Virus record (IMG/VR): IMGVR_UViG_3300030117_005808
Span: 1 to 64,000 of that record
DNA from: a virus
Reading direction: 5' to 3' (one strand)
Length of the DNA stretch: 64,000 nucleotides
Part shown: in pieces, positions 1 to 64,000 of the stretch
How positions within the stretch are numbered: position 1 is the first letter of the stretch
Layout: each line of letters begins with the position of its first letter
Notes under the pieces: model-generated
What the model saw: only the letters and a program-made list of their open reading frames with translations
What the model was told of the DNA's origin: nothing
The model's database searches: none
Made by a program: the position numbers and the translations under genes

Positions 1-225
1 CTCACGGCACACGAAGTAAAGACCATTCTGACCCGTGTTGGTGAGGGCACCAAGATTGTTTTGACAGGTGATATTGAACAAATTGATAACATATATGTTA
101 ACGAAATGTCATCCGGTTTGACGCACGCTGTTGAAAAAATGAAAGATCACGATATAACTGGCCATATTACACTCAAGAAGGGTGAAAGATCAAGAGTTGC
201 AACGTTAGCAGCTAAGATTTTATAG
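1..225 (+). CDS. phoH: PhoH-family ATPase, C-terminal fragment (5' end outside window)
   Basis: The window opens inside a gene; the frame from base 1 is open to a TAG at 223-225 and gives 74 residues. They carry LTAHEVKTILTRVGEGTKIV followed by LTGD and later KKGERS, which match the end of the PhoH/YlaK P-loop ATPase domain (family knowledge: an RNA-associated ATPase common in marine phages). The Walker A part lies outside the window, so activity cannot be judged. No terminator hairpin follows the stop; a promoter starts nine bases later, so the next genes are probably transcribed separately. Confidence 0.8.
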   Translation, partial: LTAHEVKTILTRVGEGTKIVLTGDIEQIDNIYVNEMSSGLTHAVEKMKDHDITGHITLKKGERSRVATLAAKIL

Positions 226-233
226 TTTTCTCC

Positions 234-262
234 TTGACAGAATACAAAATTGTGGTTATAAT
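234..262 (+). promoter_or_regulatory. sigma70-type promoter
   Basis: A consensus -35 box TTGACA (234-239) is followed after exactly 17 bases by a consensus -10 box TATAAT (257-262). It lies in the only gap in this part of the window, 22 bases before the ATG of the next gene, and AAGG at 271-274 can serve as the ribosome binding site. A perfect match in both boxes suggests recognition by the unmodified host RNA polymerase, as for early genes. It may drive the genes from 284 onward, perhaps into the glycan locus. Confidence 0.85.
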
Positions 263-283
263 ATAATATAAAGGATAAACATT

Positions 284-616
284 ATGCAAGTTGCTGATAG
301 AGAAAGTAAGGTCGCTAAAGAAAGTGAGATATATAAGAAGGTTACACCTGACTCACCAATGAAGGTCTGGCTTGTAGATTATGTTGGCGAAAAATTTCAA
401 CAAGAAATGATTCGGTTTAAAGCAGACACAGGAAAAGATTATGAATGGGATGGAAACATCACCGTTGAGATGATAGTTGATCTCATGGCCAAAGAGTTTC
501 CAGAATTTGTTATGGCTTTAGCAGAAGAAAATTTTATCAGAGGTTATCGTCAAGCCTTTGCTGATTTAGAGGCCGGCCAAGAAATGGTTAAAGCCGAGCA
601 AGATGGACAAAAATAG
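284..616 (+). CDS. hypothetical protein, 110 aa
   Basis: I do not recognise this family. The protein is acidic, probably mostly helical, with no signal peptide or membrane segment. The central part (residues about 20-95) contains WLVDYVGEKFQQEM and a C-terminal helix rich in Glu and Ala. The ATG at 284 sits just downstream of a strong promoter and an AAGG ribosome binding site, so it is likely expressed early. Its 3' end overlaps the next gene by 14 bases, which suggests translational coupling. No function is proposed. Confidence 0.75.
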   Translation: MQVADRESKVAKESEIYKKVTPDSPMKVWLVDYVGEKFQQEMIRFKADTGKDYEWDGNITVEMIVDLMAKEFPEFVMALAEENFIRGYRQAFADLEAGQEMVKAEQDGQK

Positions 617-1295
617 ACTTAATATAGAGGATATAATAAAAAAATCTCTGCTAGACCAAAAGGTTTTGCAGAAAGAACATCATTTGTTTGGAAAATTGTT
701 GTATGTTCAAGAGCCGTTCGCCGGCGCCGTAGATGTACAAAATGTCATAAATGAAATAGAACAGAATATTCCGCCCCACTTATTTGAAGAAATAGATACT
801 ATTATTGTTGGTTCTTTTGAAATTTTAGATAAAAGAGATTTAGAAGCTCTTTATAAAGATGGGGCCATATACATTAGCAGCAGAATAATCAGTAATAGGG
901 ACTTAATAGAAAATATTCTGCATGAAATGGCTCATTCTTTGGAAAATTCCATGGGGTATTATATTTATGCTGATGGAGTGCTACAATCTGAATTTTTAGC
1001 AAAAAGGCTAAGATTAAGGGATATGCTGGGGTCTGAAGAGCAAGAATATTATTATGATTTTTCTAATACCGAATACAAACTAGAGTTTGATGAATTTTTA
1101 TATCAAGATATAGGTTATCCAAAATTACGCTCTTTAACAAATGGGCTATTTCATACACCCTATGCTGTGACAAGTTTAAGAGAATATTGGGCCTCCGGTA
1201 TTGAGGATTATTTTCTTGGTGACAAAGAGTTGATCAAAAGAGTTAGTCCAGAACTATTTAGAAAAATAGAGGGAGTAATAACTCATGAGTACTAA
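603..1295 (+). CDS. putative HExxH metalloprotein, 230 aa
   Basis: Residues 107-111 read HEMAH within LIENILHEMAHSLE, the HExxH zinc-binding and catalytic signature of zincin metallopeptidases. A third ligand could be Glu129 or a later residue, but I cannot assign it. The protein has no signal peptide or membrane segment, so it would act in the cytoplasm or inside the particle. It overlaps its neighbours by 14 bases upstream and 11 bases downstream. The motif alone does not prove peptidase activity, and the substrate is unknown. Confidence 0.7.
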   Translation: MDKNRLNIEDIIKKSLLDQKVLQKEHHLFGKLLYVQEPFAGAVDVQNVINEIEQNIPPHLFEEIDTIIVGSFEILDKRDLEALYKDGAIYISSRIISNRDLIENILHEMAHSLENSMGYYIYADGVLQSEFLAKRLRLRDMLGSEEQEYYYDFSNTEYKLEFDEFLYQDIGYPKLRSLTNGLFHTPYAVTSLREYWASGIEDYFLGDKELIKRVSPELFRKIEGVITHEY

Positions 1296-2343: not shown

Positions 2344-2350
2344 GGTTTAA

Positions 2351-6969: not shown

Positions 6970-6973
6970 ACAT

Positions 6974-10722: not shown

Positions 10723-10729
10723 TTTTTTC

Positions 10730-10758
10730 TTGCCTTTTTAAAAATAGTGTGTTATAAT
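10730..10758 (+). promoter_or_regulatory. putative internal sigma70-type promoter
   Basis: In the one sizeable gap of the glycan locus (59 bases), a perfect -10 box TATAAT lies at 10753-10758. The TTGCCT at 10730-10735 (4 of 6 matches to the -35 consensus) is 17 bases upstream. The spacer holds the palindrome TTTTTAAAAA (10735-10744). It would start a transcript 20-30 bases before the GTG of the cytidylyltransferase gene, so the nonulosonic acid genes may have extra or separate expression. Confidence 0.65.
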
Positions 10759-10781
10759 AATAACAAAGATTAGGATGTTCT

Positions 10782-11525: not shown

Positions 11526-12739
11526 GTAATCCCGGTAAATACCTTAACAACGAAATTAAATATCTAAAAAAAGTATTAGACTCGGAGTGTTGGTCGTCTA
11601 CAGCAGGGTCATGGTGTCAGGCTTTAGAGGAAAAGTTCGCAGAGAAATTTGAGTGTAATTACGCAGTTGCTATGAACTCTGGCACGTCAACTTTGCACGC
11701 CGCGCTAGAAGCTGTGGGCGTCGGGGCTGGTGATGAAGTTATATCACCTGCTTTAACTGTCATTATGGATACGACGGCCACTCTCCATGCAAACGCCATA
11801 CCAGTGTATGCGGACATCGACCCACACACGTTTAATATTGATCCGGATGATATTGAAAGAAAAATAACTGATAAAACAAAAGCAATTATTGCTGTATCTT
11901 TGTATGGCTTGCCATGCGATATGGATAGAATTATGAACATTGCAAACAAGCATGGCATAGCTGTCATTGAAGATAACGCACAGTGTTTCTTATCAACTTA
12001 CAAGGGCAAGCTTGCTGGCACCATGGGCCATGTTTCAAGCTGGAGTTTTGAAAATTCAAAACACATGAGTTGTGGCGAGGGCGGAATCATCACTACCAAT
12101 GATGAAAGATACGCCCAACTGGCTAGGAAAGTAGCAGGGCATGGATATAAAAATTTAGGAGCCAGTTATGGACAGATAAAGTTAAATCAAAGTGTGTATC
12201 AGAATCCAAATTATAAAAGACATGATTCTGTTGGATGGAATTATCGTATGCCCGAGTTTAATGCAGCTATCGCCCTAGCACAACTAGAGGAGCTTGATCA
12301 AAAAGTCGATTTACGAGTCCAAGCAGCATCAGAATTCCTAGACGTTGTATCAGGGTGCGATTACATTACACCACAACAAGTACCAAATGGATATGTGCAT
12401 TCATATTTTACACTTGGTTTACTTTATGAAGGTGCAGAGAAAATAGGAATATCTTGGGAAGATTTTAGAGAAAAGTATATTAGTTTTGGTGGCGATGGTT
12501 TTTATGGTGCGTGGAGTGTACCCTACCTAGAACCAGTGATGACTAGCAGAGCTTATGTAAAGAGATACCCCGAGATATATGAAAAGACATTATATCCACA
12601 AGGTATTTGTCCGGTTGCTGAAGCTATACAGCCAAAGTTGATGCAGTTTAAAACAAATTATAGAGACATTAAGTTGGCTCAACAAAAGGCTGATGCCTTG
12701 AGAAAAACAATAGAATTTTATGGAGAAAAAAATGAGTAG
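11522..12739 (+). CDS. DegT/DnrJ/EryC1 PLP aminotransferase, 405 aa
   Basis: A full-length fold-type I sugar aminotransferase. NSGTSTLHAAL (52-62) binds the phosphate of PLP, EDNAQ (150-154) contacts the ring (D151), and SFENSKHMSCGEGG places the Schiff-base lysine at K180. Such enzymes add an amino group to a 4-keto or 3-keto nucleotide sugar. Between the cytidylyltransferase and NeuB, it probably makes the amino sugar precursor of a legionaminic/pseudaminic-type acid (inference). No sugar N-acetyltransferase is recognised in the locus. Confidence 0.88.
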   Translation: MSNPGKYLNNEIKYLKKVLDSECWSSTAGSWCQALEEKFAEKFECNYAVAMNSGTSTLHAALEAVGVGAGDEVISPALTVIMDTTATLHANAIPVYADIDPHTFNIDPDDIERKITDKTKAIIAVSLYGLPCDMDRIMNIANKHGIAVIEDNAQCFLSTYKGKLAGTMGHVSSWSFENSKHMSCGEGGIITTNDERYAQLARKVAGHGYKNLGASYGQIKLNQSVYQNPNYKRHDSVGWNYRMPEFNAAIALAQLEELDQKVDLRVQAASEFLDVVSGCDYITPQQVPNGYVHSYFTLGLLYEGAEKIGISWEDFREKYISFGGDGFYGAWSVPYLEPVMTSRAYVKRYPEIYEKTLYPQGICPVAEAIQPKLMQFKTNYRDIKLAQQKADALRKTIEFYGEKNE

Positions 12740-13565
12740 TATTTATATTATTGCAGAGATTGGAATTAATCACAATGGTGATCTAGGTTTAGCGAAGAAA
12801 CTGATTGAACAATCCAAGCACTCTGGTGCTGATGCTGTTAAGTTTCAAAAGAGGACCATTGATTTGGTATACACTCCCGAAGAGTTAGATAAGTACAGAG
12901 AGTCGCCGTGGGGTACTACTAACAGGCAGCAGAAAGAGGGACTAGAGTTCTCGATGGAACAGTACAAAGCGTTGGAAAAATACACTAAAGACCTTGGTAT
13001 GGATTTTATCGTTTCATGCTGGGATACAAATAGTGTAGACGTTGTGGAGCAGCACTTGGATATTAAGTATCACAAGGTCGCCTCTGCCTTGGCAACGGAC
13101 AAGGCATTTTTAAAAAAGCTAAATGACACAGGTCGTCCAGTTATCTTGTCAACAGGTATGTGTACCACAGAAGAAATTAATGCTGCTATCCAAACACTTA
13201 ATAACGTTGAGATTGTGTTAGCTTGCACAAGCACATACCCTACCAAACCAGAAGAGGTTAACTTGAGGCATATAGATACCTTGAGAAAAGAGTATCCAGA
13301 TCTAAAGATCGGTTTCTCTAATCATTATAATGGTCTGGATGCATGTGTTGGCTCTGTAGCTGTTGGGGCAGAGTGCGTAGAGTTTCATATTACTAACGAT
13401 AGAGCTTCTTACGGTTCCGATCAGGCGGCGTCAATTGAAGATTCCCACTCTTTGATTCAGGCTATTAGAAATATGGAGTTAATGCTCGGAGACGGACAGA
13501 AAATGGTTTATGATTCTGAAGTCCCAATTATTAATAAGCTACGGAAAGTGAATGATATCGTCTAA
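12732..13565 (+). CDS. neuB: NeuB-family nonulosonic acid synthase, 277 aa, without SAF domain
   Basis: The protein starts IIAEIGINHNGDLGLAKKLI and has DAVKFQKR and IVSCWDTNS, all classic NeuB TIM-barrel motifs. The C-terminal GAECVEFHITNDR matches the conserved E-K/F-H-x-T-x-D-R block. NeuB condenses an N-acyl hexosamine with phosphoenolpyruvate. Usual length is about 340-350 residues with a C-terminal antifreeze-like (SAF) domain; here the protein stops after the barrel, so SAF is missing. I chose ATG 12732, served by GGAG at 12722-12725, over ATG 12720. Confidence 0.87.
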   Translation: MSSIYIIAEIGINHNGDLGLAKKLIEQSKHSGADAVKFQKRTIDLVYTPEELDKYRESPWGTTNRQQKEGLEFSMEQYKALEKYTKDLGMDFIVSCWDTNSVDVVEQHLDIKYHKVASALATDKAFLKKLNDTGRPVILSTGMCTTEEINAAIQTLNNVEIVLACTSTYPTKPEEVNLRHIDTLRKEYPDLKIGFSNHYNGLDACVGSVAVGAECVEFHITNDRASYGSDQAASIEDSHSLIQAIRNMELMLGDGQKMVYDSEVPIINKLRKVNDIV

Positions 13566-42530: not shown

Positions 42531-42980
42531 ATGGCTCAAGGTTTAGCAGTAGCACTGCCGCTGGAATTAGACACGACTGACGGTCCGTATAAGTTACATA
42601 AGAACTTGACCGATATGGCCGCACAAAATTTAAAAATGGTTATTTTAACCTCCCCCGGCGAGAGAGTGATGATCCCAGAGTTTGGAGTTGGCATTAGAAA
42701 CTTTCTTTTTGAGCCAAACAATAATGACACAAGAGAAAGAATTAGAAACAGAATTCAAGTTCAAGTTGAAAAATACTTACCATATATTGAGCTAGTAAGT
42801 CTTGAATTATACAAGCCACAAAGCGCATTAGTGGGCGAGACAGAAGATAATGGTTTAGTCATAAGAATAAAATATTCAATACCAGCCGCAAATGTCGTCT
42901 CAGAGTTAACCATAGACGCAGGCACCGGCGCCTCCACTTCTACTGGAGGTAGCTCTGGCGGTTCTGGCGGCGGCTATTAA
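42531..42980 (+). CDS. 25: T4 gp25-like baseplate wedge protein, 149 aa
   Basis: PGERVMIPEFGVGIRNFLF (around residues 44-62) is the core motif of the gp25/GPW family, which starts sheath assembly and joins wedge proteins in the baseplate. The size matches T4 gp25 plus a C-terminal tail: the end is GGSSGGSGGGY, a glycine-serine tail with a final Tyr. GGAGGA (42518-42523) precedes the ATG. The 27-base gap before it contains TATATATTAA but no clear promoter. Confidence 0.88.
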   Translation: MAQGLAVALPLELDTTDGPYKLHKNLTDMAAQNLKMVILTSPGERVMIPEFGVGIRNFLFEPNNNDTRERIRNRIQVQVEKYLPYIELVSLELYKPQSALVGETEDNGLVIRIKYSIPAANVVSELTIDAGTGASTSTGGSSGGSGGGY

Positions 42981-43034: not shown

Positions 43035-44831
43035 ATGGCTAGAAGAAATGTACCCATAGATTATACCAGTAGAGATTTTGATTCCATTAGGGATGATCTC
43101 GTAAACTATGCAAAAAGATACTATCCTGATACTTTTAAAGATTTTAGCGAAGCCTCTTTTGGGTCTCTAATGCTGGATACAGTCGCCTACGTCGGTGACA
43201 TTATGTCATTCTATCTTGATTATCAGGTCAACGAGTCATTCATTGACACGGCCGTCGATTTTAAAAATATCCTTCGATTAGCCAAACAAATGGGATATAA
43301 ATATACCGGAGCCAAAACGACTTCTGGTATGGTGTCTTTCTACGCCATTGTCCCAGCAACATCAATCGGGCTTGGTCCAAAAACAAGCCATATGCCAATC
43401 CTAAAAGCAAATACTGTAGTTAAGTCAGATTCGGGCGCCTCGTTTATCTTGACAGATGATGTTCGTTTTGATGATCCATCTAACGAAACTGTAGCTGCAC
43501 AAACAAATGCTACAACAGGAATTCCAATAAGCTACGCTGTTAAAGCCGAGGGCCAAGTAATATCAGGCATATTTAATCAAACCACTCAAACTATAGGTGC
43601 CTTTCAGAAGTTTCTCCCAGTCCGTATAGACAATGCTAATTTGATAGAGATTGTTAGTGTGTTCGATTCTGAGGGTCATGAATATTTCGAGGTTGAATAT
43701 TTAACACAAGATGTAGTTTACAAGGCTGTCCCCAATAGGGATGAAAATACAAGACAAAATGCCCCATCCCTTATGAGGCCATTCGTTGCCGCTCGACGAT
43801 TTACAGTCGAAAGAGACATTAACGGAGTTACTCTTACATTTGGACATGGCTCTGACTCGGAGTCAGGATCCCAGACGATTGCGGATCCGGCAAATGTTGT
43901 TTTGCAGAGAGCAGCAAAAGATTATACCACCGATGAATCTTTTGATCCGTCAAACTTAGTTGGAAACGATAAACTAGGCATAGGCCCTGCAAACACTACT
44001 CTAACAATCAGGTACAGGGAAAACACTGCCTCAAGTGCAAACGCTGCGATCGGATCGATCACTTCGGTGACAAGTCCTATCTTTGAATTTAACGACCCAT
44101 CTATAGCAAACACGTCAGCAGCAAGAGATGTTGTTGCAAGTATAGAGTGTTCAAACGAGGAGCCATTGGTCGGCTCAACTGCTATCCCATCACGGGAAGA
44201 AGTGAGACAAGAGGCCATGATGGCCTTCTCTAGTCAGAATAGAGCGGTAACCTCACAAGATTATGAGGCTCTTGTTTATATGATGCCCGGTAAGTTTGGT
44301 TCTGTTAAGCGTGCGAGAGTGGTTAGAGACCAAGACTCACTAAAAAGAAATCTGAACATTTACGTTATTTCTGAAAACTCTTTTGGTAAGATGGCAGCTA
44401 CAAACAGCGCGATCAAAGAAAACTTGAAAGTTCACTTAAATAGATATCGCATGATTAACGATACGGTAGATATTTTAGATGCAAAAGTGGTTAACATAGC
44501 TATTGACTTTGAGGTTGTTTCTAGTGAAGAGGTTAATAAATATGAGGTCCTTGATTCCTGCATACAAGCACTCAGGAGAAAATATTCTTCTCCAATGTTT
44601 ATAGGAGAAAGATTTTATCTTACAGATGTGTATACAGAACTCAATAAAGTGCGCGGTGTCGTGGATACTTCTAGAGTCAAGCTTGTTAACAAATCAGGTG
44701 GCAATTATTCATCCTCGGCTCTTAATATAGATCAATATATGTCCCTCGACGGTAGATACTTATCAGTCCCAGACAATGTAATACTTGAGATCAAGTTCCC
44801 AAGAATAGATATTAAAGGAACTGTGAGATAA
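43035..44831 (+). CDS. 6: T4 gp6/Baseplate_J-like wedge protein, 598 aa
   Basis: The N-terminus is typical of gp6 and P2 gpJ: DYTSRDFDSIRDDLVNYAK, FSEASFGSLMLDTVAYVGD and YLDYQVNESFIDTA. T4 gp6 forms the dimers that connect wedges in the baseplate inner ring. The 598 residues compare with about 660 in T4. It is directly downstream of gp25, as in many contractile tails. A GGAG ribosome binding site precedes the ATG; the 54-base gap has no terminator hairpin. Confidence 0.87.
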   Translation: MARRNVPIDYTSRDFDSIRDDLVNYAKRYYPDTFKDFSEASFGSLMLDTVAYVGDIMSFYLDYQVNESFIDTAVDFKNILRLAKQMGYKYTGAKTTSGMVSFYAIVPATSIGLGPKTSHMPILKANTVVKSDSGASFILTDDVRFDDPSNETVAAQTNATTGIPISYAVKAEGQVISGIFNQTTQTIGAFQKFLPVRIDNANLIEIVSVFDSEGHEYFEVEYLTQDVVYKAVPNRDENTRQNAPSLMRPFVAARRFTVERDINGVTLTFGHGSDSESGSQTIADPANVVLQRAAKDYTTDESFDPSNLVGNDKLGIGPANTTLTIRYRENTASSANAAIGSITSVTSPIFEFNDPSIANTSAARDVVASIECSNEEPLVGSTAIPSREEVRQEAMMAFSSQNRAVTSQDYEALVYMMPGKFGSVKRARVVRDQDSLKRNLNIYVISENSFGKMAATNSAIKENLKVHLNRYRMINDTVDILDAKVVNIAIDFEVVSSEEVNKYEVLDSCIQALRRKYSSPMFIGERFYLTDVYTELNKVRGVVDTSRVKLVNKSGGNYSSSALNIDQYMSLDGRYLSVPDNVILEIKFPRIDIKGTVR

Positions 44832-46361: not shown

Positions 46362-49300
46362 ATGAGTATCAAAAAACTATTTGATTCAAATAAAACAAAC
46401 GACATACTCGTCTCAACTAATCTAGAAGAAGAGGTAGTCAAAAACGTCCCCGAGCTTGAATCTGCGGATAACGTCAGAGAGCAGATCGAGAGGATCAATC
46501 GTTTTATACCACAGGTGGATTATAGTGATCCAGCCAACTTTGCTGTTTATGGATCAGCCGAGCGATATTATAGGGATTCATTCCACAGAATCGCTACTCA
46601 ATACCCGTATGATGGTTCCGAAGAAGAGATAACTCGCTACGACAACGAGTCCAACTATCTTGACCTTCATATCCTTGAGAATGAGTATCCTAGGACGCTT
46701 GGGCACGTTCGGTTTCCTTCAAACAATCTTGGCCCAAACGCTACCGCTAACCAGTTTGGTCAGAACACCCACGCAGCAAACATTACATTTTTTGGTGGAC
46801 CAAATGCTATAGCAGGTGGGATGACAACTGGCTCATTCCACCTACAGTTCACTGGTTCCAACTATTACGATACAGATATTTATCAAACTGATGGTACGCT
46901 TGCATTAGACAGAGTTGGGTCAAGAGAAAGTAACTTAACTTATAACCTTCCTAGCAAAGGACTCACAGTTGAGTTTTGGCAAGGAACCGAAGGAAACCTG
47001 ATAGGTGGGACCGGCGCGTTTGGCCGACAAGCCAGACACGCTTTGTTTGATTTGTGGAACGGAGAAGCCTCAAGTTCGGCTCAATATGGTCGCCTAACTG
47101 TATACGCTTCAGGTTCTACAACAGCCTTTAAAGGCATTTATCTAAACGCATATTCAGGCACTGTTGGAATCCAAGAACTTAAGTTATTGGATCCTGCTGT
47201 AGCTGCTCAAATCCCACCACAATATGTTGATACTTCATCTCCCACGCCGGGTCACTTGGCTTTTGCTTTTAGTTCTGGGTCAACTCTGGGCTTAACTGTT
47301 AAGACATATATTAATGGTGTTCTAACCACAACAACAGGCTCTTCAATCGCCCTAAATGAAGTCACTGGCGCCCTCCGAGGCCGTATTGGTGCTCTCCTAA
47401 CGAATCCATCAGGCACTTCTATAGGCACAGATATGGATGGTTATGGTACCAGTATTCGCAGTGCCTACGACGAGTTTAGGTACTGGAAAGCCGAGAGAAC
47501 AGAAAAAGAAATACAACAAAACTATTGGACACAAGTTCGTGGCGGCACAAATAACGAAATAGCAAACGCAGAACTTGGTGTATATTACAAGTTTAACGAG
47601 GGCATTACAGGGGACGCAACAACTGATGCGACTGTTTTAGACTATTCTGGCCGTATTACAAACGGAACCATCACAAACTACGGCACTGATGCTACCAGTA
47701 CGCTAGTAAGAAATGCCCATCCAGCCCCCGCACGCAGTTCGCTTATTGTTGCTGCTGGAGCAGCTACATCAGAGTTCAAAGACCCAATCATTTATGCAAG
47801 CCACCCGGATGTTGTCTCTGCACTTGACAGATTGGTCGCATCTGGTAGCGTCCACGACTTTGAAAACCAAGCAAGCATAAAAGATTCTATCCCAAGCTGG
47901 ATTATAGAAGAAGACGAAACATCAGGCGGTGAAGAGTTAGGCAAGCTTACACAGATCCTCGGTTCCTATATGGATACTCTCAACCTGCAAATCCAGTCCC
48001 TGCCTACATTAGCAGACAATACATACTTAAGCGGCAGCGATAAGCCTACACCATTTATGAAAAATCTGTTAAGCTCCCGAGGCCTAGCAGTCCCAGAAAT
48101 CTTTGTGGATGCTGACCTTCTCCAGCGATTCGCCAACAGAAGCGACACCGAAAGCTACACTCTTGATATTAACGATACCAAGAATCTTATTTACAAGAAT
48201 ATCTACAACAACCTTACTTACCTTTACAAGTCAAAGGGCACAGAAAAAGCATTTAGAAACCTTATCCGTTGTTACGGTATTGGCGAAGATGTCATTAGAT
48301 TCAACGCATACGCAAGCAATCAAACCTTTGACATCCAAGAAACAAGACAAGACAGAGTTATTAGAAAGAACTATGTTGACTTTAACCACCCTGATAGGTT
48401 TGATGGCGTTGTTTACCAGAGAGGCAACAGCATTGTGCCAGAGGCAGATGGCATTTCTTTCTTCTCGGCATCCTCACCAGACGCCGCCTTTGCTCAAACC
48501 GCAGAACTAGAAGTTATATTCCCAAGAAAGTTTGAGTTCGCTAACTCACAATATTTTGATACACCTTTTGTTACAGCATCTCTCTACGGTAAAGCATCAG
48601 CATCAGCAGACCCAGCATCCTTTGACGCATCATTCAGTAATAACCCAGCCAACGCGCCTTGGCTTGTTGCTTATGCTGTTCGGACCCATCAGAATTCAAA
48701 GGACGCTTATTTTGTTCTTGATTCTAACTTATTTACAAATCCGCTCACAAGTGATATTTACTCAAACATTTATGATAATCAGAAATGGAATCTGGCGATA
48801 AGAGTTAACTCTAAAGCTTGGCCATACGCAGCATCCTCCAGTGTTAACGGTGCGTTAGATGATCAAGACATAAGTTTTATTGGATATAATGTAGAGAACG
48901 GAGTCGTAAAAAATAGTTTTGTCTTAACAACTTCATCAGTGTCTTCCAACTTGGGGCCAAGTTTACCTTACCGCTACTTTGTTGGATCACAAATAACAAA
49001 CTATACCGGTGCAGTAGACCATCGAACTGATGTTTTGGCATCCTCACTGCGAGTGTATACAACCTACCTAGATGACGATGTTATCAAATCACACGCCCTT
49101 GATCCCGAAAACTACGGAACAAGAAACCCAAGCAGAAACTTTTTATTTTACAACGACTCTGGTCCCCAACTCGCGAGCGTTGTTGGAGGCATTAAAAACT
49201 CTATCCCAGAGTCTGTTTCTCTTGCTCTTAATTGGGATTATTCGCAGGTCACCACAACAGACCCCAACGGCCGCTTCATCGTCCAAGATGCATCATCTGG

Positions 49301-52300
49301 TTCAACAGGACTAACCAGCAGATACCCGCAAGAGAATGTTCTTACAAATGTTAATAAACAGTTCGCAGGCCGAGGTCAGTTTGGGGCTAGCGCATACAGT
49401 TCAACGGATGTCATCTCCAAGCAATTTGTTCAATCAGCACAACAAAGACTACCCGAAGTTGTTAATACCAACGACGACGTAAACGTTCTATCCAGAGATG
49501 ATGAACTTTATCCAAGAGATGCGTCTATTTCGCAGACCTACTACACCTTTGAAAAGAGCATGTACGGTATTGTTTCACAAGAAATGATCAATATGTTCTC
49601 GTCTATTGTTGAGTTCAACAACCTTATCGGTGAAGTTGTCCATAAGTATCGTGGCGAGTACAAGAGTTTAAGGCTTTTAAGAGAACTTTTCTTCGAGAAG
49701 ATTCAAAACAACCCTGACCTCGACAAGTTTATTGATTACTATAAGTGGATTGATTCCTCACTCAATATTTTCCTACAGCAGTTTGTTCCTGCTTCTGCTG
49801 ATGTTTCCGATGAGATTCGCACTGTGGTTGAAGATTATGTTCTTAACCGCTCCAAATACCAGCACAAGTACCCACAACTAGATTATAAGGGCAACGCTCG
49901 CTTTGGTGGCGACGAGGCCAAGTTAGAAGGCAGAGTCAAGGGCATTAGAGAACTAGAGTACAACTGGCAGTTTGGCCACGCGCCAACAACTAACTCTCAG
50001 ACTGAACATTCTACTTGGTGGAAAGAACGAGCAGAAAGAAACAACACAGCATTTAATACCGCTGCGCTTATTGATACAGCAAGAGAAGACATCCTCAACA
50101 TCATCCAGCTATTCAACTCTGCAAGCGCCCCATCGCTTAATGACGGCACCGGAGCCTCTGGGGTATACGAAGGGTCCACTTACGCCACAAGACGCTTCAC
50201 AAGGCAATATAAGCTTGATGCAGCCATCGTCCCTGACATCGGCGGTGGCTACAACTACCCAAGGGGCCATAAGCCGGATGCTATTTATTCTATAGTTTAC
50301 GACCGGCCGGTCGACGTGTCAGGCCTGACAAACGAGGAAGCAATACAGTTTGAAAAACAAGCGACGTTCACGCTTCCAAGCGAGGAACTAAGGCCTGTCA
50401 CAAAACAAGAAAAAAGAAGAGTCTCTGCCATTAATCCAAATGGCGTGTATTCCTCCAATTTGGGACCCCAAACGCCCGGAGGTGGATCAAAACTTGTTGC
50501 GCCTTTCATAGCGTTTAGCTCCTCTGTTTCTCCTGCTGGCGGTTACGGTACACAATGGCAAGAATACAATCGTAGACCAGACGTTAGTAAAGAAGAGTTG
50601 GCTGGGTACCATAATGATTCTTATGGTGACGACTATGAAGTTCCAATGCAAGGGCCGTTTACTAATCAACACGTTGGAGGCAATAGGCACAGGCATACAG
50701 ATTTAAATCAAGGTTCTGACAATCTAAAAACTCGGGCCGAGGCTTGGCTCGTTGCCGGCGCCGGTAACGATGGCATCTTCGCGCCGGCCAAGACCGCCTT
50801 CGCCAACCCGCCTGCTCCATTGAACCCAACCGTACCCGGATCTAGCCCCAACTACCGCAGAGACCAAACAGCCAAGCGCCCTGTTAACATCAAAAACATC
50901 AAACACAGAACAGGCTCACTCGGAACCATCGCGATGGGCAACTATTCTGCAAGTTATGAAATCGTTCAAACAACCGGCAGAACTCAAAACAACTCTGCGT
51001 TTGTAAAGTCAGAAGGTATAAGAGACAACTTTACCATCTCTGTTGCAGGCGCTGATGAGGTTGGTTATATCGATCACGTCACAGACTACGCCAAGCCTAC
51101 CCGCCGTAGAGCAGCCCATGTTATAGTTAACCGCTTCTCCGCACCCGGCGGTCCTGAAACAGCAGGTGATAGTCAGGGTGGACCGGGCCTCGACTTTGAA
51201 GCAGCAGAGTTTAGCCCTTACAACAACTTAAACTATAGAAACACTACAGTCCGAGATCCATTAAGAACGCTTTTGACCGACCACACAGCGTTTGGCGGTA
51301 TTGAGTCTGGGTCTGCTGTCTCCGCGCTGAACTATACGGACGTTACGGCTAGTTATCACAAGGTTAATCGAAACCCGCTGCATCGTTTGGAAGGATATGA
51401 TAACGGACAAGAAACGGCAGTTACCGGAACAGTGTTCGATAATTATTTTGTGCAGCATATGATTCCAAGATCTGATTTTCAATATTCTTGGATAACAGCA
51501 TCAACAGATAGATTTAATGCCGCCCTCGGCGCAGCAAATAATATATATGGATATTTTCCTTACGATGGACTTGCAAGAGTTTCAAGTTCTGCTAATGGCT
51601 TTAGGTACGAAGCAGCAGTTAATTTTGCTAGCGCAAGCGAAGTAGGCTCTGGCAATCCATTAGGAGTCCAGCAAGCGACAAGGCAGATCAGATTGATAAC
51701 AAGTGCGCTGATGCAAGATGCATCATTCGTCCCAACTGACTTTGCTGGCATAAACTCAAATGTTATAGAGCCTATTAGCGCATCTGAATTTACTATTGGT
51801 TATCCTCTGGATGCGGATCCTATGAATTATTATAACTACGGACCCTTTGGACAGGTTCCAGCCTTTGGTTCAGCTCATCGTGGTGGGTTTATAACTAGAA
51901 TAAACTCTAATGTCGCCGCAAACTTTAATGCATATTTTACTATGTTGATGGCTCATAGGGGAGGTAATGTTGGGCACCCAACTTGGAAACAGATCAGAGT
52001 CGGAGAGACTCAACTTGCACGACACTATCGTAAAAATAACTTATATACTAATACTTATGAGCCTGTCATAGCATCAAGCGTGGCCGATTTGTCTGGGACA
52101 AGACAAAAAATTTCTTCAACGACCGAAAGTGTTATACTAACTCAATCTGTTGTTACCGACCGATACTTCCCAGTCGTGTTTGAGGTTGAAGCAAGAGATG
52201 ATGAGCAAAATAGTAAAGTCCTTAAATCATCAAATTTTGTTATTCGAACTTCTTTTGTGAATGATACTATTACTTTTGACGACGCCACTATAGTCAACAG

Positions 52301-55300
52301 GCTGCTAGACGAGAACGTTATAAGTAATGCGGCAAGAAAATCCTCATATAAACAAATCATTGATGATTTTAGCATTTATGATAGTTTCTTAGACGAACAG
52401 AAGCCTATACTTCAAATTAATAGTTTAAAATATAGAGAAACTGTGTTCCCTCCACAACTACATGCTTATACTAGTAAAATACGCGGAAGAACAAACTATG
52501 AAAATGATTTCTGGCGTGACAGCCGAACAGATAGGACTGCTAAGGGAGCCTTGAAAAAAGCCAAAAACAGTCAAGGTACCGCCGTTCTTCAAAGCGCGTG
52601 GTCACTTGATGGCCTAGAATCTAATACAAATTCTAATATTGCAACTGGCCTGATTGGATATCCAACAGGTGGCATCAACGCCAATAACGCAACTGGGTAC
52701 AAACCCGGTGAACTTCAGAACTTATATACACATTTTGTAAGAGCACCTGACGGCCGAGATGTTAATTCCGAATTAAGGAATCAGTTGAGAACAGGCGCCT
52801 TATACTCTAGAAAGCATCTCATGCCTTTTACTTCATCAGTTGTTGGTATGTCAGGGATGAGGAAACAAATCGGTATTGAACCATTTGTATACGGCGGCAC
52901 AAGTTATTTGCTGTTAACATCATCTATTGGGGCTGGTGAAGCTTTTTGGGACGCAGGAAACTTAGCAGGTAAATACGAGGGTACGTCTAGCATCTTTGTT
53001 ACAACCCCAGCGAAACCATTTTATGATGATTACGATCAATATTTTGCAGATATAAAAAATAAAAATCGAGGTAAAGCGATTTTGCCAGAGTTTAGAATAA
53101 CAGAACATTTAGATTTTTATGAAAATGAGGGCAACAATTTTCTTGTTGAAAATGAAAAACTTTTTTCTTTCGCCGGAACCCCCTCGGGCTCTTCTTTGCC
53201 GCAAAATAGTTCAGAGGCAGACTTTTTCTCGATTTACACAAACTCAGATTTTATGAAATATTTTGAAGTAGTGAGAGAGGATGGAGCCAAAGAGGGTGGC
53301 ATTTTGGAGCCCACAGCAGTTAAATTGCGATGTAGGGGGATCAAAAAGTTTATTCCGTATGATGGCTTTTACCCTGCCGAAAGAACCATCCAATTGGCGA
53401 ACGCATTTTCAGCGTCAATAGCACCTACAACAGGCTTGACGGGCGATGACGCAGCAAAGCAAGTTGCTTTCCGTAGCATGCTCAAGCCTTTTTTCGCCCC
53501 CGGAATTGTATACAATACTATCAAGTCGGGTGTTGCTGTTGACTATCCAATAATGACTGGCTCTTTTAATAGAGCAAACTTAATCAACTCTGCTGCTAAT
53601 GCGGGTATTAGATTTTGCACTACAGCCTCTGCTGGAATATTTTCTAACTCAAGGGCTGTTTCGGTGACACCCTCTGGTGATGGTAGCGGCTTTGGAACGG
53701 TCTCACACAATGATGGTTGGGATTATCGTGTGCCGTTTGAGGCTGTGGTTGATCCAGCAAAATATGTATACGCCAAAAACATTGTCGATGACGAGCCCAG
53801 TGCTTATGCTAATATTCACTCAACAGCTTCGTGGGCCACCTCTCTGGCCACCAATAAATATAAATATATGATGCACAATTTCCTAGCTTCGTCTTTAGAT
53901 TTCTTTATTAAAGACGGCAAACCAACAGAAATTATATCAGCACCAGAAAGTGAATTTAAGTCTGTCACACCCGGCCAGCCTTACGGCCTACGCATTAAAA
54001 TGTTTAAGAGTTATGAAACGGGCTCACAAAATCCGACCTCTGGTGACTGGGGCGACTTTTCTGTGCCTCAGTTTGTTAGTGGCTCACTATCAAACTTTAC
54101 AATGTATAGTCGCCCCTCGGCCTTCGGTCCTCCCGTCTTGGCCGGCTCCGGATCTAGTACACTGGCACAACAAAAATACGTTGTCACAGGATCAAGAGAG
54201 ATGACCCCGGCTCGCGGCCGCTACCTGTCCCATACACCACCGTATTATGATGGTGAATCTTGGATTGATTTAATTTATTATCCGTACAAGTCTTTCGATA
54301 CAGGATCCGGCGGTTTGCTTATAGAAAACAATCAAACCAAAGTAGTGCGAATTGATGAACTACACAACCTTGCACTATCTGAATTTAACACTGGGTCAGC
54401 AATCTTACAAATAGAGGATTACGAAGGCACTAGATTTGGAGGAGAGGGAACTTATGTTGTTCGCTGGCGTTTTGACCAAGAGGCCCTTCGAGTCGATCGG
54501 CCAGACCTTTCATCTTATCACGACATTGGCAAAGACATCGGCCCTATGGGAGGCCCATGGGCAAACCGGTGGGCAATGCAACTAGATGCATCTCTCAATA
54601 TCTTTACTAAGCTTCGTGGTGCCGGCAGTCTTGCGTCTGAGGCAGTCTCTGCTGATTTGGCAGGCCTCGGTGCGACCGGAGCGACCGAACCTCAAGATGA
54701 TCGTTGGAGAATCCAAACTAAGTTTGAAACACCAATGTTAAATTTCCAACATGTAAAAACCGCCGATATAACAGTTAATGGCACTCTTGGTAGCTTAACA
54801 CAATATCAAAAGGCAGTGAATAGTGTTATACCAAGAGGTATGTGGCACCAATTTGGTAGAATTCCAAAACCTGACGAAGGAGTATACTTGCAGGTAACAG
54901 ATATTCCAGACGATTTTATAAACAATCACCCATCATCAAGTATCGTGTTTGACCCAGCCGGTCATTTTGACTCAAGAAATAGTGCCTCAGAAGCAATAAA
55001 AGCTTTGGCTGATGTTAATGCAGGCGCAAATATACGCGATATAATTGCAAAAGATTTGAACGGATACAGGATACCTCAGAATTTACAAATACCCGCCTCT
55101 GCATTCTCTGTAGCCACCGACCGCCCACCAGCACCAACTACACCTCCCCCTTTATCACTTGTTGACATATGTGGCTTCCCCACAGATCCAGTAAAAATTG
55201 GAGAGTTGCCAGAAGCTAAAACTGTTTATGAGGCTGTTGTTGCGGTGCCCTTTGTTGAGAAAGAAGGTGAAAGAGAGTTCTTTAAAATTATGTCTCCAAA

Positions 55301-55919
55301 ACAAGGAGATATATTTGACGATTATGCTGGCAAAAGTATTAAGAGACAAGCTGAGTTAATGGAGAAATATGTTTTTCCACCTACTTTTGATTTTGTTCAA
55401 AATATTTCTGTGGACCCAATAGCTATGTATATTTTTGAATTCTCACATAAGTTTACACAAGATGATTTATCTCACATGTGGCAGAACCTATCGCCAAAAG
55501 TTGGCACCCAAGCAGAAAATGCCATGGCAACAGTCTCTCATCCGCTCTTAGCTAATCAGCTTTTAAACTTTGATTTTGCAGAAGCACAGGATGCTTTTGA
55601 AGAATCCCGTAAGCCAGCAAAGGCCGAGTTCCCAGAAAATCTCCAGTGGATGGTTTTTAAAGTTAAGCAAAGAGCAAAAACAAATTATTATGAACAGATT
55701 GCTAGCACTGAATCTGCCGTAATTCCATTTTACACTCAAAATTGGCCGTATGACTTCTTTTCTCTTATTGAGGTAGCTGAGATTGATGCTGAAGTTAATC
55801 TTAAGCCTACACAAAATAATTTAGATATGAAGACTCAACAACGCACCGCTGCTCAAGAAGCCCTGAATGAAGTGACAAGCAGGCAACAGCCGCTAGATAT
55901 CGGACCAGCGGAGGACTAA
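46362..55919 (+). CDS. giant baseplate/tail protein, 3185 aa, with LamG-like domain
   Basis: Residues about 195-390 form a laminin-G/concanavalin-like domain (GLTVEFWQGTEGN at the start, YDEFRYWKAERTEKEIQQNY at the end). Residues about 520-720 have YKSKGTEKAFRNLIRCYGIG, which resembles the K-G-T-x-x-A block of P2 gpI/T4 gp7-like wedge proteins. The remainder is repetitive beta-strand sequence without repeats I can define. The gene follows gp25- and gp6-like genes in the place where gp7 lies in T4, so it may be a much enlarged gp7 with binding domains (inference). The frame is intact over 9.5 kb. Confidence 0.75.
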   Translation: MSIKKLFDSNKTNDILVSTNLEEEVVKNVPELESADNVREQIERINRFIPQVDYSDPANFAVYGSAERYYRDSFHRIATQYPYDGSEEEITRYDNESNYLDLHILENEYPRTLGHVRFPSNNLGPNATANQFGQNTHAANITFFGGPNAIAGGMTTGSFHLQFTGSNYYDTDIYQTDGTLALDRVGSRESNLTYNLPSKGLTVEFWQGTEGNLIGGTGAFGRQARHALFDLWNGEASSSAQYGRLTVYASGSTTAFKGIYLNAYSGTVGIQELKLLDPAVAAQIPPQYVDTSSPTPGHLAFAFSSGSTLGLTVKTYINGVLTTTTGSSIALNEVTGALRGRIGALLTNPSGTSIGTDMDGYGTSIRSAYDEFRYWKAERTEKEIQQNYWTQVRGGTNNEIANAELGVYYKFNEGITGDATTDATVLDYSGRITNGTITNYGTDATSTLVRNAHPAPARSSLIVAAGAATSEFKDPIIYASHPDVVSALDRLVASGSVHDFENQASIKDSIPSWIIEEDETSGGEELGKLTQILGSYMDTLNLQIQSLPTLADNTYLSGSDKPTPFMKNLLSSRGLAVPEIFVDADLLQRFANRSDTESYTLDINDTKNLIYKNIYNNLTYLYKSKGTEKAFRNLIRCYGIGEDVIRFNAYASNQTFDIQETRQDRVIRKNYVDFNHPDRFDGVVYQRGNSIVPEADGISFFSASSPDAAFAQTAELEVIFPRKFEFANSQYFDTPFVTASLYGKASASADPASFDASFSNNPANAPWLVAYAVRTHQNSKDAYFVLDSNLFTNPLTSDIYSNIYDNQKWNLAIRVNSKAWPYAASSSVNGALDDQDISFIGYNVENGVVKNSFVLTTSSVSSNLGPSLPYRYFVGSQITNYTGAVDHRTDVLASSLRVYTTYLDDDVIKSHALDPENYGTRNPSRNFLFYNDSGPQLASVVGGIKNSIPESVSLALNWDYSQVTTTDPNGRFIVQDASSGSTGLTSRYPQENVLTNVNKQFAGRGQFGASAYSSTDVISKQFVQSAQQRLPEVVNTNDDVNVLSRDDELYPRDASISQTYYTFEKSMYGIVSQEMINMFSSIVEFNNLIGEVVHKYRGEYKSLRLLRELFFEKIQNNPDLDKFIDYYKWIDSSLNIFLQQFVPASADVSDEIRTVVEDYVLNRSKYQHKYPQLDYKGNARFGGDEAKLEGRVKGIRELEYNWQFGHAPTTNSQTEHSTWWKERAERNNTAFNTAALIDTAREDILNIIQLFNSASAPSLNDGTGASGVYEGSTYATRRFTRQYKLDAAIVPDIGGGYNYPRGHKPDAIYSIVYDRPVDVSGLTNEEAIQFEKQATFTLPSEELRPVTKQEKRRVSAINPNGVYSSNLGPQTPGGGSKLVAPFIAFSSSVSPAGGYGTQWQEYNRRPDVSKEELAGYHNDSYGDDYEVPMQGPFTNQHVGGNRHRHTDLNQGSDNLKTRAEAWLVAGAGNDGIFAPAKTAFANPPAPLNPTVPGSSPNYRRDQTAKRPVNIKNIKHRTGSLGTIAMGNYSASYEIVQTTGRTQNNSAFVKSEGIRDNFTISVAGADEVGYIDHVTDYAKPTRRRAAHVIVNRFSAPGGPETAGDSQGGPGLDFEAAEFSPYNNLNYRNTTVRDPLRTLLTDHTAFGGIESGSAVSALNYTDVTASYHKVNRNPLHRLEGYDNGQETAVTGTVFDNYFVQHMIPRSDFQYSWITASTDRFNAALGAANNIYGYFPYDGLARVSSSANGFRYEAAVNFASASEVGSGNPLGVQQATRQIRLITSALMQDASFVPTDFAGINSNVIEPISASEFTIGYPLDADPMNYYNYGPFGQVPAFGSAHRGGFITRINSNVAANFNAYFTMLMAHRGGNVGHPTWKQIRVGETQLARHYRKNNLYTNTYEPVIASSVADLSGTRQKISSTTESVILTQSVVTDRYFPVVFEVEARDDEQNSKVLKSSNFVIRTSFVNDTITFDDATIVNRLLDENVISNAARKSSYKQIIDDFSIYDSFLDEQKPILQINSLKYRETVFPPQLHAYTSKIRGRTNYENDFWRDSRTDRTAKGALKKAKNSQGTAVLQSAWSLDGLESNTNSNIATGLIGYPTGGINANNATGYKPGELQNLYTHFVRAPDGRDVNSELRNQLRTGALYSRKHLMPFTSSVVGMSGMRKQIGIEPFVYGGTSYLLLTSSIGAGEAFWDAGNLAGKYEGTSSIFVTTPAKPFYDDYDQYFADIKNKNRGKAILPEFRITEHLDFYENEGNNFLVENEKLFSFAGTPSGSSLPQNSSEADFFSIYTNSDFMKYFEVVREDGAKEGGILEPTAVKLRCRGIKKFIPYDGFYPAERTIQLANAFSASIAPTTGLTGDDAAKQVAFRSMLKPFFAPGIVYNTIKSGVAVDYPIMTGSFNRANLINSAANAGIRFCTTASAGIFSNSRAVSVTPSGDGSGFGTVSHNDGWDYRVPFEAVVDPAKYVYAKNIVDDEPSAYANIHSTASWATSLATNKYKYMMHNFLASSLDFFIKDGKPTEIISAPESEFKSVTPGQPYGLRIKMFKSYETGSQNPTSGDWGDFSVPQFVSGSLSNFTMYSRPSAFGPPVLAGSGSSTLAQQKYVVTGSREMTPARGRYLSHTPPYYDGESWIDLIYYPYKSFDTGSGGLLIENNQTKVVRIDELHNLALSEFNTGSAILQIEDYEGTRFGGEGTYVVRWRFDQEALRVDRPDLSSYHDIGKDIGPMGGPWANRWAMQLDASLNIFTKLRGAGSLASEAVSADLAGLGATGATEPQDDRWRIQTKFETPMLNFQHVKTADITVNGTLGSLTQYQKAVNSVIPRGMWHQFGRIPKPDEGVYLQVTDIPDDFINNHPSSSIVFDPAGHFDSRNSASEAIKALADVNAGANIRDIIAKDLNGYRIPQNLQIPASAFSVATDRPPAPTTPPPLSLVDICGFPTDPVKIGELPEAKTVYEAVVAVPFVEKEGEREFFKIMSPKQGDIFDDYAGKSIKRQAELMEKYVFPPTFDFVQNISVDPIAMYIFEFSHKFTQDDLSHMWQNLSPKVGTQAENAMATVSHPLLANQLLNFDFAEAQDAFEESRKPAKAEFPENLQWMVFKVKQRAKTNYYEQIASTESAVIPFYTQNWPYDFFSLIEVAEIDAEVNLKPTQNNLDMKTQQRTAAQEALNEVTSRQQPLDIGPAED

Positions 55920-55922
55920 TAG

Positions 55923-56963: not shown

Positions 56964-56997
56964 TGGAAAACTACTTAGATATGTGAGGTTCTAGTTT

Positions 56998-60768: not shown

Positions 60769-63209
60769 TGGCCAAAAAAACTACAAGATTAGCAAATCCA
60801 AGTGTTATGAATGCTCAAGATAGGTTTCGCCTGTTGTTTGGCAGGTGGACACAAAACACAGACGGAATAAGCTTTTCAGTTTTAGAAAATGATAACACGG
60901 TTCAGCTTGATAAAATATTTGATCCCGTCCCACTAGAACCAGATCTTGCTACCGGTAATGTGTCGTTAACTGATGGCACGGAAAGTTTTACGGACGCTAT
61001 AACAAGTACAAGTGACGAGAACACATCTCTCTTCCGTCCCACTGAAGAGATAGAGAGGCCACTCGGCTCGGTAAGCGATAGAACAGGAAACCCAATCCCA
61101 TTTAATCCATATCCAACATTAGTGCCTACACATGTGCAAACAGTAAGATTGTTAGATACTAGGGATAAGAACACCACTACTCATCAATCTTGGGTGGATA
61201 TTGTTAACAATTTGTTTGATCCCACCATAGTGTACGAAGATTATGTAACTTCTTTCGATGCGCCTGCTACAAAAGAGGAAATGCTAAACATAGAAGGTAG
61301 TCCTGTATCTGCACCAGCTACAATTGATTATGTATACAATTTTAGCGACATTCCTTATGAGAGGGTCGCGGCTAATGTCACAAACCATGTTGTCTTGCCG
61401 AACTTATACTCTATGCTAGATGAAAGCACAAAAATAGGGACAACACCAGTAACAGATGATACAGATATTAATGTTCTTAGATCCCCTACTGCTAGGCAAC
61501 TAAGGCGAAACATTAGAAATAGAAATCAAAGATTGGGCCTTCAAAACAAAATAGTGCCCATTGAAAATATGCCATTATTAGCTGACTATGAGGGCAGTAA
61601 GTATTTATTTCAAATGTATGTGAATATGAATATACCACTTGATAAGAATAAGAAATTTGCTGAGGTGATGAAAGACAGTACGATGGGGATCGCTTTAACA
61701 AGAGATGTTGAAGGGGTGCCAGATGTCGCATCACAGCTAAAATCTGAACCTTTTGTTTTTTCTACGCAAGTCATAGCAAAACGATCTGGAGTAGAGGAGA
61801 CTAACATCTCCGAAATACAAGTTAAAACATTAAATCTTTTAGATTGGACCCTAATAGATGCTCCCTCGTATGTCACCGAAACAGACACCCTGTATGAAGC
61901 TCCTTTTACTTTCAGCTTTGTCGGCGCCGACGCAGGATCATTCCAAGAGTTAGGCAATTTTAATTCTGTTTCTACTGCGATTGCAAATAACGATGCTTTT
62001 GCACTAGCATTAGAAAATTGCTACGATGGGCTAAAAGATCTTGCGGACAACAATCGACGAACATTCCAAGACTTGATAGGCGGCAAAGAGGCATATTCTG
62101 AAATGCTCATGTACAAGGTGGAAAAGAGGCTAGGACCAGTCCAGCCAGTTTTGCAAGATCCAATACAAACATTTCATTTTATGAACTCTGCTGAAGTCGA
62201 AGAATTTTTATCAAATGAAAATCAATTTAAGTTTGTTGATACACAGGTTAAGTATGGCACCGAATACATCTACACGGTGACCGGATACAGAGCAGTCATT
62301 GGAACTCGCTACCAGTATGGTAACCCAACCACAGTCTCGGACTCGTTTGAGAATCCAAATAATCGCACTGCGTCGGTACCCGTATTTACCACCCCGATGA
62401 TTAAGTTAGTAGAAGTGCCTCTTCTTTCTTCAACAGGTAGAATACTTGACAACCCACCTCTAAAACCAGAGGTAAGATTTTTTCCAGTTGTTGGCGATAG
62501 AAGTAGTATAAAAATGTTTTTCACCACATCCACAGGGATGAAAGATGTTGAGCCTATAGCGTTCTCTCAAGAAGAAGCTAGCGAGCACGCACAAATTGCC
62601 ATTAATCAAAACAGGAACGATGGTAAACTAACATTTAAAACCGATGACTCAGCCTCAGCTTTTGAGATATATAGAATATCGGAGCCTCCAGTCACTATTG
62701 ATGATTTTGCGGAACAGTTGTTTGCAACAGTCTTAACCAGTTCTCCAACTAGTGTTCCCCTGAATGGCTCATCAGCCACAGCTTTAGTATCACAAATTCC
62801 AAATCAAAAGTATTATTATGTATTCCGAACGGTGGACACGCACGGCCACAAATCAAATCCAAGTGCAGTTTTTGAAATAGAACTATATAATGATGGAGGG
62901 GCAGGATATCCAATCATAAGACATTATGATATGGCTTCACCTGATCCCACTACAACCACTAAATCAGCAAGGAAAATAATACAGATTATTCCAAGAATAT
63001 CTCAAGTATATTTAAATGAGGCAGCATCTGGCTTGTTAAATGAAGACGGTCAAACACAGCCCGCCGGCGGAAATAGGAATATTCAACTTGGAACCGAGGA
63101 CGAGCCTTTATTTGGCAAAAAATTTAAGGTGCGGATAACATCTAGATCAACCGGAAAAAAACTTGATTTAAATATTGATTTTAAGACAAAACAACTCAAG
63201 AGTTCATAG
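60768..63209 (+). CDS. large virion protein with FN3-like segments, 813 aa
   Basis: Residues about 480-520 (FVDTQVKYGTEYIYTVTGYR) and about 680-700 (IPNQKYYYVFRTVDTHGHKS) read like the F/G strands of fibronectin type III domains, which are common in phage tail proteins. An Arg-rich helix RQLRRNIRNRNQRLGLQN lies near 245. The gene starts at the stop codon of the previous one (TAATG). The following 59 bases hold no terminator that I can see. The exact role is unknown. Confidence 0.62.
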   Translation: MAKKTTRLANPSVMNAQDRFRLLFGRWTQNTDGISFSVLENDNTVQLDKIFDPVPLEPDLATGNVSLTDGTESFTDAITSTSDENTSLFRPTEEIERPLGSVSDRTGNPIPFNPYPTLVPTHVQTVRLLDTRDKNTTTHQSWVDIVNNLFDPTIVYEDYVTSFDAPATKEEMLNIEGSPVSAPATIDYVYNFSDIPYERVAANVTNHVVLPNLYSMLDESTKIGTTPVTDDTDINVLRSPTARQLRRNIRNRNQRLGLQNKIVPIENMPLLADYEGSKYLFQMYVNMNIPLDKNKKFAEVMKDSTMGIALTRDVEGVPDVASQLKSEPFVFSTQVIAKRSGVEETNISEIQVKTLNLLDWTLIDAPSYVTETDTLYEAPFTFSFVGADAGSFQELGNFNSVSTAIANNDAFALALENCYDGLKDLADNNRRTFQDLIGGKEAYSEMLMYKVEKRLGPVQPVLQDPIQTFHFMNSAEVEEFLSNENQFKFVDTQVKYGTEYIYTVTGYRAVIGTRYQYGNPTTVSDSFENPNNRTASVPVFTTPMIKLVEVPLLSSTGRILDNPPLKPEVRFFPVVGDRSSIKMFFTTSTGMKDVEPIAFSQEEASEHAQIAINQNRNDGKLTFKTDDSASAFEIYRISEPPVTIDDFAEQLFATVLTSSPTSVPLNGSSATALVSQIPNQKYYYVFRTVDTHGHKSNPSAVFEIELYNDGGAGYPIIRHYDMASPDPTTTTKSARKIIQIIPRISQVYLNEAASGLLNEDGQTQPAGGNRNIQLGTEDEPLFGKKFKVRITSRSTGKKLDLNIDFKTKQLKSS

Positions 63210-63268
63210 AATAAGACAAAACCTTTTTAATATACTATTTATTATGATGCCTTTAGGAGAGGAAACGA
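63210..63268 (+). other. intergenic gap (59 bases) before the last gene
   Basis: This is one of the few gaps over 50 bases. It is AT-rich (TTTTTAATATACTATTTATTA) and ends in a purine-rich ribosome binding site (AGGAGAGGAA). I see no GC-rich hairpin and no exact match to the T4 late box TATAAATA. It could hold a weak late promoter, but nothing decisive is visible. Confidence 0.3.
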
Positions 63269-64000
63269 ATGGCTTTTTTAGATAATTCGGGTGATATTAT
63301 ACTCGACGCTGTGCTGACCGATACTGGTCGAATGAGACTTGCAAGAGGAGACGGCAGTTTTAAAATTGAAAAGTTCGCCCTTGGCGACGATGAAATCAAT
63401 TACGAACTTTACAATAAGAACCATTCAAGTGGTTCTGCTTATTATGATTTAGAGGTTTTGCAGTCTCCTGTCCTTGAGGCTTTTACTGATAATGCAGCCT
63501 CCATGAAGTCTAAGCTTATTTCTATTCCAAGAAATAACCTGCTATATCTCCCAGTATTGGCACTTAATGAAGTTTTTGATACAACTGCAACAGCTAAACA
63601 CACCTCTGGATTTTTTCTTGTGGCGGTTGATTCTGATACACAAACTGAGCTAGAGGTTAATACTTCTGGTGAGTCTGTGGCCGGTATCCTTTTTGGCGAG
63701 GATCCGGGCGCAAATGGCAATCGTATTCGAGTAGACCAAGGTTTGAACACAACAGCGATATCTCCGGGTAAAACTATTGGACCCCTATTACTTGAAACTC
63801 AATATTTGATTGAGATAGATAACCGTCTTGGGTCTGTTTCTAACCTTAAGGGCGGTGAAGCATCACCATCATTTATTGACGACGATAACCTTGCGTCTTA
63901 CTATCTTTCTAGGGGAACAGACCGAGAATTTGTAACAAACAATACAGACACTACCAACTCTGCTAATCAGATTATTAGTGGCCCGCGCGGCACTATTCTT
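63269..64000 (+). CDS. phage structural protein, partial (3' end outside window)
   Basis: From the ATG at 63269, preceded by AGGAGAGGAA, the frame stays open to the window edge, giving 244 residues. The start MAFLDNSGDIILDAVLTDTG and the following RMRLARGDGSFKI with KFALGDDEINYELY recall tail/baseplate proteins from T4-like marine phages, whose function is unclear. In the visible part I see predicted beta-strands and loops with Ser/Thr/Asn-rich segments. Its full length cannot be judged. Confidence 0.7.
   Translation, partial: MAFLDNSGDIILDAVLTDTGRMRLARGDGSFKIEKFALGDDEINYELYNKNHSSGSAYYDLEVLQSPVLEAFTDNAASMKSKLISIPRNNLLYLPVLALNEVFDTTATAKHTSGFFLVAVDSDTQTELEVNTSGESVAGILFGEDPGANGNRIRVDQGLNTTAISPGKTIGPLLLETQYLIEIDNRLGSVSNLKGGEASPSFIDDDNLASYYLSRGTDREFVTNNTDTTNSANQIISGPRGTIL

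Follow-up and report, generated by a model that had tools for sequence, protein, structure and literature searches.

Absence of CCWGG and depletion of many other palindromic words in a T4-like phage genome

Coliphages T7 and T3 are said, from work by Kruger and colleagues in 1988, to have few CCWGG (CCAGG/CCTGG) sites and to be refractory to EcoRII. The DNA considered here is positions 1-64,000 (the window) of the 106,523 bp virus record IMGVR_UViG_3300030117_005808, which is apparently a fragment of the genome of a T4-like myovirus and which lacks CCWGG altogether; positions 64,001-106,523 form the remainder of the record. Rusinov et al. 2018 found elimination to be almost confined to orthodox type II sites, of which 7.1% were eliminated compared with less than 0.5% for other types, and reported an avoided share of 55.8% of sites in T4-like coliphages that have no hydroxymethylase and 2.4% in those that have one (PMC6286503). 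Avoiding sites is an established way for phages to evade restriction, and the present case is an extreme, multi-site and unusually clear instance of it.

Loss of CCWGG

A sequence-only reading of the window had claimed that CCWGG is absent from its 64 kb where several tens of copies would be expected, that CCCGG and CCGGG together occur well over fifty times, and that GGWCC is present. Exact counting bears this out, giving CCAGG 0, CCTGG 0, CCCGG 39 and CCGGG 28 (67 CCSGG in all), alongside 46 GGWCC and 61 GGSCC. A third-order Markov model expects 67.5 copies of CCWGG in the window, and orders 0-3 give 59-73, so that the probability of finding none is at most 1.7e-26. The absence, a feature of positions 1 to 64,000 with no strand assigned, extends to the end of the record: the remainder also contains no copy, and the entire record has 0 against 110 expected (110-127 over orders 0-3). 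Of all 5-mers, the record lacks CCAGG and CCTGG alone; the least frequent of the others has 13 copies.

The depletion is specific to this site and does not extend to its near neighbours. In the whole record CCSGG shows no avoidance, with 120 copies against 70 expected, GGWCC is normal (81 observed, 90 expected), and CCWGA is likewise spared. Nor does the loss depend on protein sequence or codon usage. In 300 synonymous shuffles over 100 open reading frames (ORFs), which preserved each protein and its per-gene codon usage, CCWGG occurred 119.3 ± 8.0 times and never fewer than 95 times. The shuffles place 61, 21 and 36 of the expected sites in the three codon phases, all of which have been emptied. 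Depletion so far under composition- and codon-based expectation, together with the sparing of near neighbours, is what characterises avoidance of a type II site.

The sequence-only reading had also pointed to a codon signature at Pro-Gly pairs, and this holds throughout: the 97 proline codons preceding GGN are CCC (58) or CCG (39), with CCA and CCT both at 0. Before codons other than GGN, CCA (633) and CCT (352) are common beside CCC (199) and CCG (170), so that the two codons account for 985/1,354 (73%) of proline codons in that context and 0/97 before GGN.

Other avoided palindromes and switching among relatives

Avoidance of CCWGG, which the sequence-only reading treated alone, stands, and it is the strongest case among about 15 avoided palindromic motifs. 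Among 6-mers expected six or more times in the record, an unbiased scan with both strands pooled returned 14 strongly depleted words, 11 of them perfect palindromes. Depletion thus affects 11/58 palindromes and 3/2,007 non-palindromes (Fisher 1e-15). The three non-palindromic words, CACGAG, CAGCTC and CACGTA, fall under degenerate palindromes, namely CWCGWG, SAGCTS and YACGTR, respectively, and the avoided words as a set are palindromes resembling orthodox type II sites. The log10 P values for CWCGWG (-12.8) and SAGCTS (-9.6) lie well below -3.8, the lowest value reached by any of 18,577 non-palindromic control motifs. By codon shuffle, SAGCTS is observed once against 75 expected.

Observed and expected counts over the whole record are 1/25 for SAGCTS, 2/36 for CWCGWG and 0/15.5 for YACGTR, which is the site of BsaAI. 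CCCGGG (0/12.9), CTGCAG (0/12.7), CTCGAG (0/9.2), GTGCAC (0/8.8), GACGTC (0/8.1), AGCGCT (0/7.2), GGGCCC (0/7.0), CCGCGG (0/6.9) and TGCGCA (0/6.6) are all absent, as is the interrupted palindrome GCTNAGC (0/8.1), while GTCGAC (1/10.5) and GGCNGCC (1/12.1) each occur once. SAGCTS was recovered blind from the phage sequence and then matched to a published specificity, being the experimentally determined site of the type II N4-methylcytosine (m4C) methyltransferase M.Ble402III (PMC4675945). That enzyme is a methyltransferase from another organism, Beggiatoa leptomitiformis. A literature search turned up no enzyme paper for CWCGWG.

Relatives of the phage switch repeatedly between avoiding and keeping CCWGG. 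Using the terminase, 80 relatives were gathered; among the 71 scorable for CCWGG on a terminase tree, 30 rows avoid the site and 41 keep it. The state changes 15 times on the tree, with at least 12 changes forced by well supported branches, compared with 22.5 for random labels. The ratio of observed to expected CCWGG is two-peaked: 15 informative records lie at 0-0.23, a gap spans 0.23-0.51, and the others fall at 0.51-1.56.

The closest keepers (L009-L012) have terminases 88-89% identical to that of the window phage. In one of these (G005, L011), CCWGG is present at 71 copies against 66 expected while AGCT is depleted (29/119). Twenty-six CCWGG sites of this genome could be aligned to the window phage and none is retained there; the changes fall at all five positions and are most often W to S and G to A. 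Control words in the same alignment are partly retained, CCWGA at 9/29 and TCWGG at 6/21 positions.

Further relatives show their own depleted words, in observed over expected counts: AATT 57/721 and CCWGG 9/106 in G031, AGCT 47/578 and CGCG 35/195 in G027, CGCG 0/35 in G022, ACGT 0/27 in G033, and GGCC 17/69 in G041. The leftover AATT copies of G031 (128 kb, L099-L105) crowd toward one end, 18 of them in the last 8 kb, which suggests a recent influx of genes. With the relatives pooled, GAGCTC is nearly absent clade-wide (6 copies against about 98 expected), in CCWGG-avoiding and CCWGG-keeping groups alike.

Restriction and other explanations for the loss

We consider it highly probable that these patterns reflect avoidance, by a virulent phage, of orthodox type II restriction sites, including those of a CCWGG-cutting activity of EcoRII, PspGI or MvaI type. 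The phage DNA would be unmodified at the avoided sites, and an unmodified genome lacking the sites would therefore be uncuttable there. The same process would have purged some 10-15 further palindromic type II specificities, and the genome would then be a fingerprint of the restriction enzymes encountered by recent ancestors. We infer all three of restriction as the selecting agent, the unmodified state of the DNA, and the responsible enzyme. Selection is favoured because the loss is site-specific, independent of protein and codon usage, present in all phases, not a product of 5-methylcytosine deamination, and toggled between close relatives. It is favoured also because several close relatives avoid other restriction sites instead.

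The sequence-only reading had proposed selection against an EcoRII/Dcm/PspGI-type site, and this is supported except in respect of Dcm and with the host restriction system still presumed. Dcm by itself methylates DNA but has no nuclease, and would not select against CCWGG. The further proposal, that base modification gives this site no protection, is compatible with the 106-kb record, incomplete as it is, in which no match was found to the C5 and N6/N4 DNA methyltransferase families PF00145 and PF01555 or to PF00303 (the thymidylate synthase/dCMP hydroxymethylase family). A C5 DNA methyltransferase was seen in only 1/43 clade records, at 88,592-89,548 of G027 (L085; PF00145, E 2e-85), where it directly follows a RuvC-like gene.

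EcoRII requires two sites. Since CCWGG has been lost entirely, an enzyme that cuts at single sites is more likely, and the data suggest such an enzyme, with the EcoRII, PspGI/BstNI and MvaI types not distinguishable.

Several points weigh against restriction avoidance. Host searches gave none, so the cognate CCWGG enzyme is one we infer. The record is a fragment, and what it lacks could include a gene for a modification enzyme. Some relatives show an unexplained partial depletion of CCWGG (0.5-0.6), and total loss exceeds what escape from EcoRII proper, a two-site enzyme, strictly needs.

Among the alternatives, selection on CCWGG for a reason other than restriction, such as regulatory interference by host methylation or by a DNA-binding protein, fares best, though we still think it improbable. 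It gains some room from the fact that the host has not been found and restriction is presumed, but total loss in all codon phases over 106 kb, with many unrelated type II palindromes lost alongside, is the pattern that published work ascribes to type II restriction.

Slightly less plausible again is that the phage, or a helper element, has its own CCWGG endonuclease directed at host or competitor DNA, the sites having been lost to avoid self-cutting. Such an enzyme would likewise produce total elimination, the record is incomplete, and one PD-(D/E)XK nuclease is encoded at 1579-2343 on the plus strand. That protein, however, matches PF12705 and the exonuclease family phrog_69, which are Cas4/RecB-like exonuclease families outside the type II restriction enzyme families. 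Further, no restriction enzyme was seen in the record, and the EcoRII-C profile found nothing in 22 phage records (MvaI/PspGI-type families were not searched), although it is positive in 14/299 Pseudomonadota genomes. An endonuclease of this kind would also leave unexplained the 10-15 other avoided palindromes and the differing sets in relatives.

Mutational loss, in which a Dcm-like C5 methyltransferase acts on CCWGG and deamination converts it to CTWGG or CCWAG, is very improbable. Four of the 26 aligned G005 sites do show CCAGG changed to CCAAG, but the required excess of CTWGG and CCWAG is absent from the record (385 observed, 375.5 expected), the changes at the aligned sites span all five positions and include W to S, and mutation pressure by itself cannot yield 0/110; we reject it. 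An artefact of composition, codon usage, assembly or library, for which only the general AT-rich composition speaks, can be dismissed, because 60-130 sites are predicted under every Markov order from 0 to 3 and by the synonymous shuffles and because both CCWGG states occur within metagenomes 3300030419 (L034 7/11, L046 5/74) and 3300037991 (L052 0/4, L076 8/8; sample numbers taken from contig names).

Gene content, host and comparison with known systems

T4-like genes of the phage include a gp17-type terminase, a portal, a gp23-type capsid protein, a head protease, and gp25/baseplate wedge components. With regard to lifestyle, the incomplete record holds packaging, capsid and baseplate genes of T4-like type; no search was aimed at integrases. 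A gp25-like baseplate gene (42531-42980, plus strand; PF04965) is followed by a baseplate wedge subunit gene (43035-44831, plus strand; phrog_219), and these indicate a T4-like myovirus. They adjoin two giant ORFs with no family match, one of 2,350 amino acids at 35451-42503 and one of 3,185 amino acids at 46362-55919 on the plus strand, the latter CCWGG-free; both probably encode tail or fibre proteins.

Family matches identify a glycan biosynthesis cassette of about 30 genes at 2351-31516 on the plus strand, in a single operon-like run of an extent unusual for a T4-like phage. It encodes glycosyltransferases, NeuB (12720-13565), a cytidylyltransferase, DegT aminotransferases, GDP-mannose dehydratase-type enzymes, a UDP-glucose/GDP-mannose dehydrogenase, a phosphofructokinase-family protein and a radical SAM protein. 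The cassette too is free of CCWGG, with 0 copies against 26.3 expected by codon shuffle in window genes ending by 31.6 kb, and has therefore either been resident for long or been purged after arrival.

Beyond the window, five successive ORFs at record positions 68,385-71,169 open with much the same leader (MKxTxxxLxQxIxEE...), which may target co-packaged internal proteins to the capsid. An ORF at 105,266-106,096 begins MNIIGLGQAGCNIADAM, which resembles the nucleotide-binding start of tubulin/FtsZ-type proteins, and it has no Pfam or PHROG match. Ribosomal protein bS21 is encoded at 83,220-83,495 (PF01165, E 1.9e-12); Microcystis phage Mel-JY01 encodes one too.

The phage bS21 matches Pseudomonadota and Bacteroidota about equally. 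A scan of genome contigs with a single terminase found no host. In a profile scan of genome bins, clade members with 64-68% identity were binned with WOR-3, Flavobacteriaceae and Acidiferrobacteraceae, three unrelated labels that conflict and may be binning errors. A Shine-Dalgarno motif stands ahead of 51% of the phage genes, compared with 12% at random positions. The motif is used by about 50% of genes in the clade and is avoided in the related Flavobacterium phage immuto (2%). A Flavobacterium-like host is therefore disfavoured.

By terminase, the nearest isolates are immuto (45% identity) and Mel-JY01 (43.5%), and by capsid protein Rhodothermus phage RM378 is also among the nearest; megablast of the first 25 kb against known phages gave no match. 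Immuto (MW353175) has similar T4-like head and packaging genes. It differs in its Shine-Dalgarno use (0.02 of genes against 0.51), in retaining CCWGG (54/61) and in having no depleted palindromes in the 49 kb examined. Mel-JY01 (PP395634) completely avoids a different set of sites, with GATC at 0/93, GAATTC at 0/21, TTATAA at 0/31 and CTGCAG at 0/9 in 49 kb; its host is cyanobacterial, and its CCWGG count is uninformative (1 observed, 2.7 expected).

It is an evenly balanced question whether this T4-like clade carries readable, fast-turnover fingerprints of host restriction arsenals, with lineage-specific sets and some motifs, such as CWCGWG, predicting undescribed specificities. If it does, metagenomic phage genomes could reveal the restriction repertoires of hosts, and how these are gained and lost, with no host in culture. 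The present case shows that an avoidance signal is legible from raw phage sequence with no knowledge of the host. A trait that flips repeatedly among near kin also provides a natural experiment on the speed at which sites are purged and regained. The prediction is that enzymes recognising CCWGG, SAGCTS, YACGTR, CTGCAG and CWCGWG exist in the host population.

Compared with T7 and T3, the window phage shares a scarcity of CCWGG tied to EcoRII-type restriction; T7 retains a few sites and escapes since EcoRII needs two, whereas here none remain. As a degenerate palindrome depleted in the phage, SAGCTS coincides with the site of M.Ble402III. The pattern of Rusinov et al. 2018 (PMC6286503) is reproduced in that short palindromic orthodox type II sites are eliminated, non-palindromic words are spared, and no protective modification was found in the incomplete record. 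Their analysis had known hosts and annotated enzymes, whereas here the phage sequence is the only source of the specificities, and a single genome shows 0/110 for one 5-bp site together with about 15 more motifs. What the present case adds is the repeated switching of avoidance in close relatives and the recovery of SAGCTS, a rare specificity that is experimentally known.

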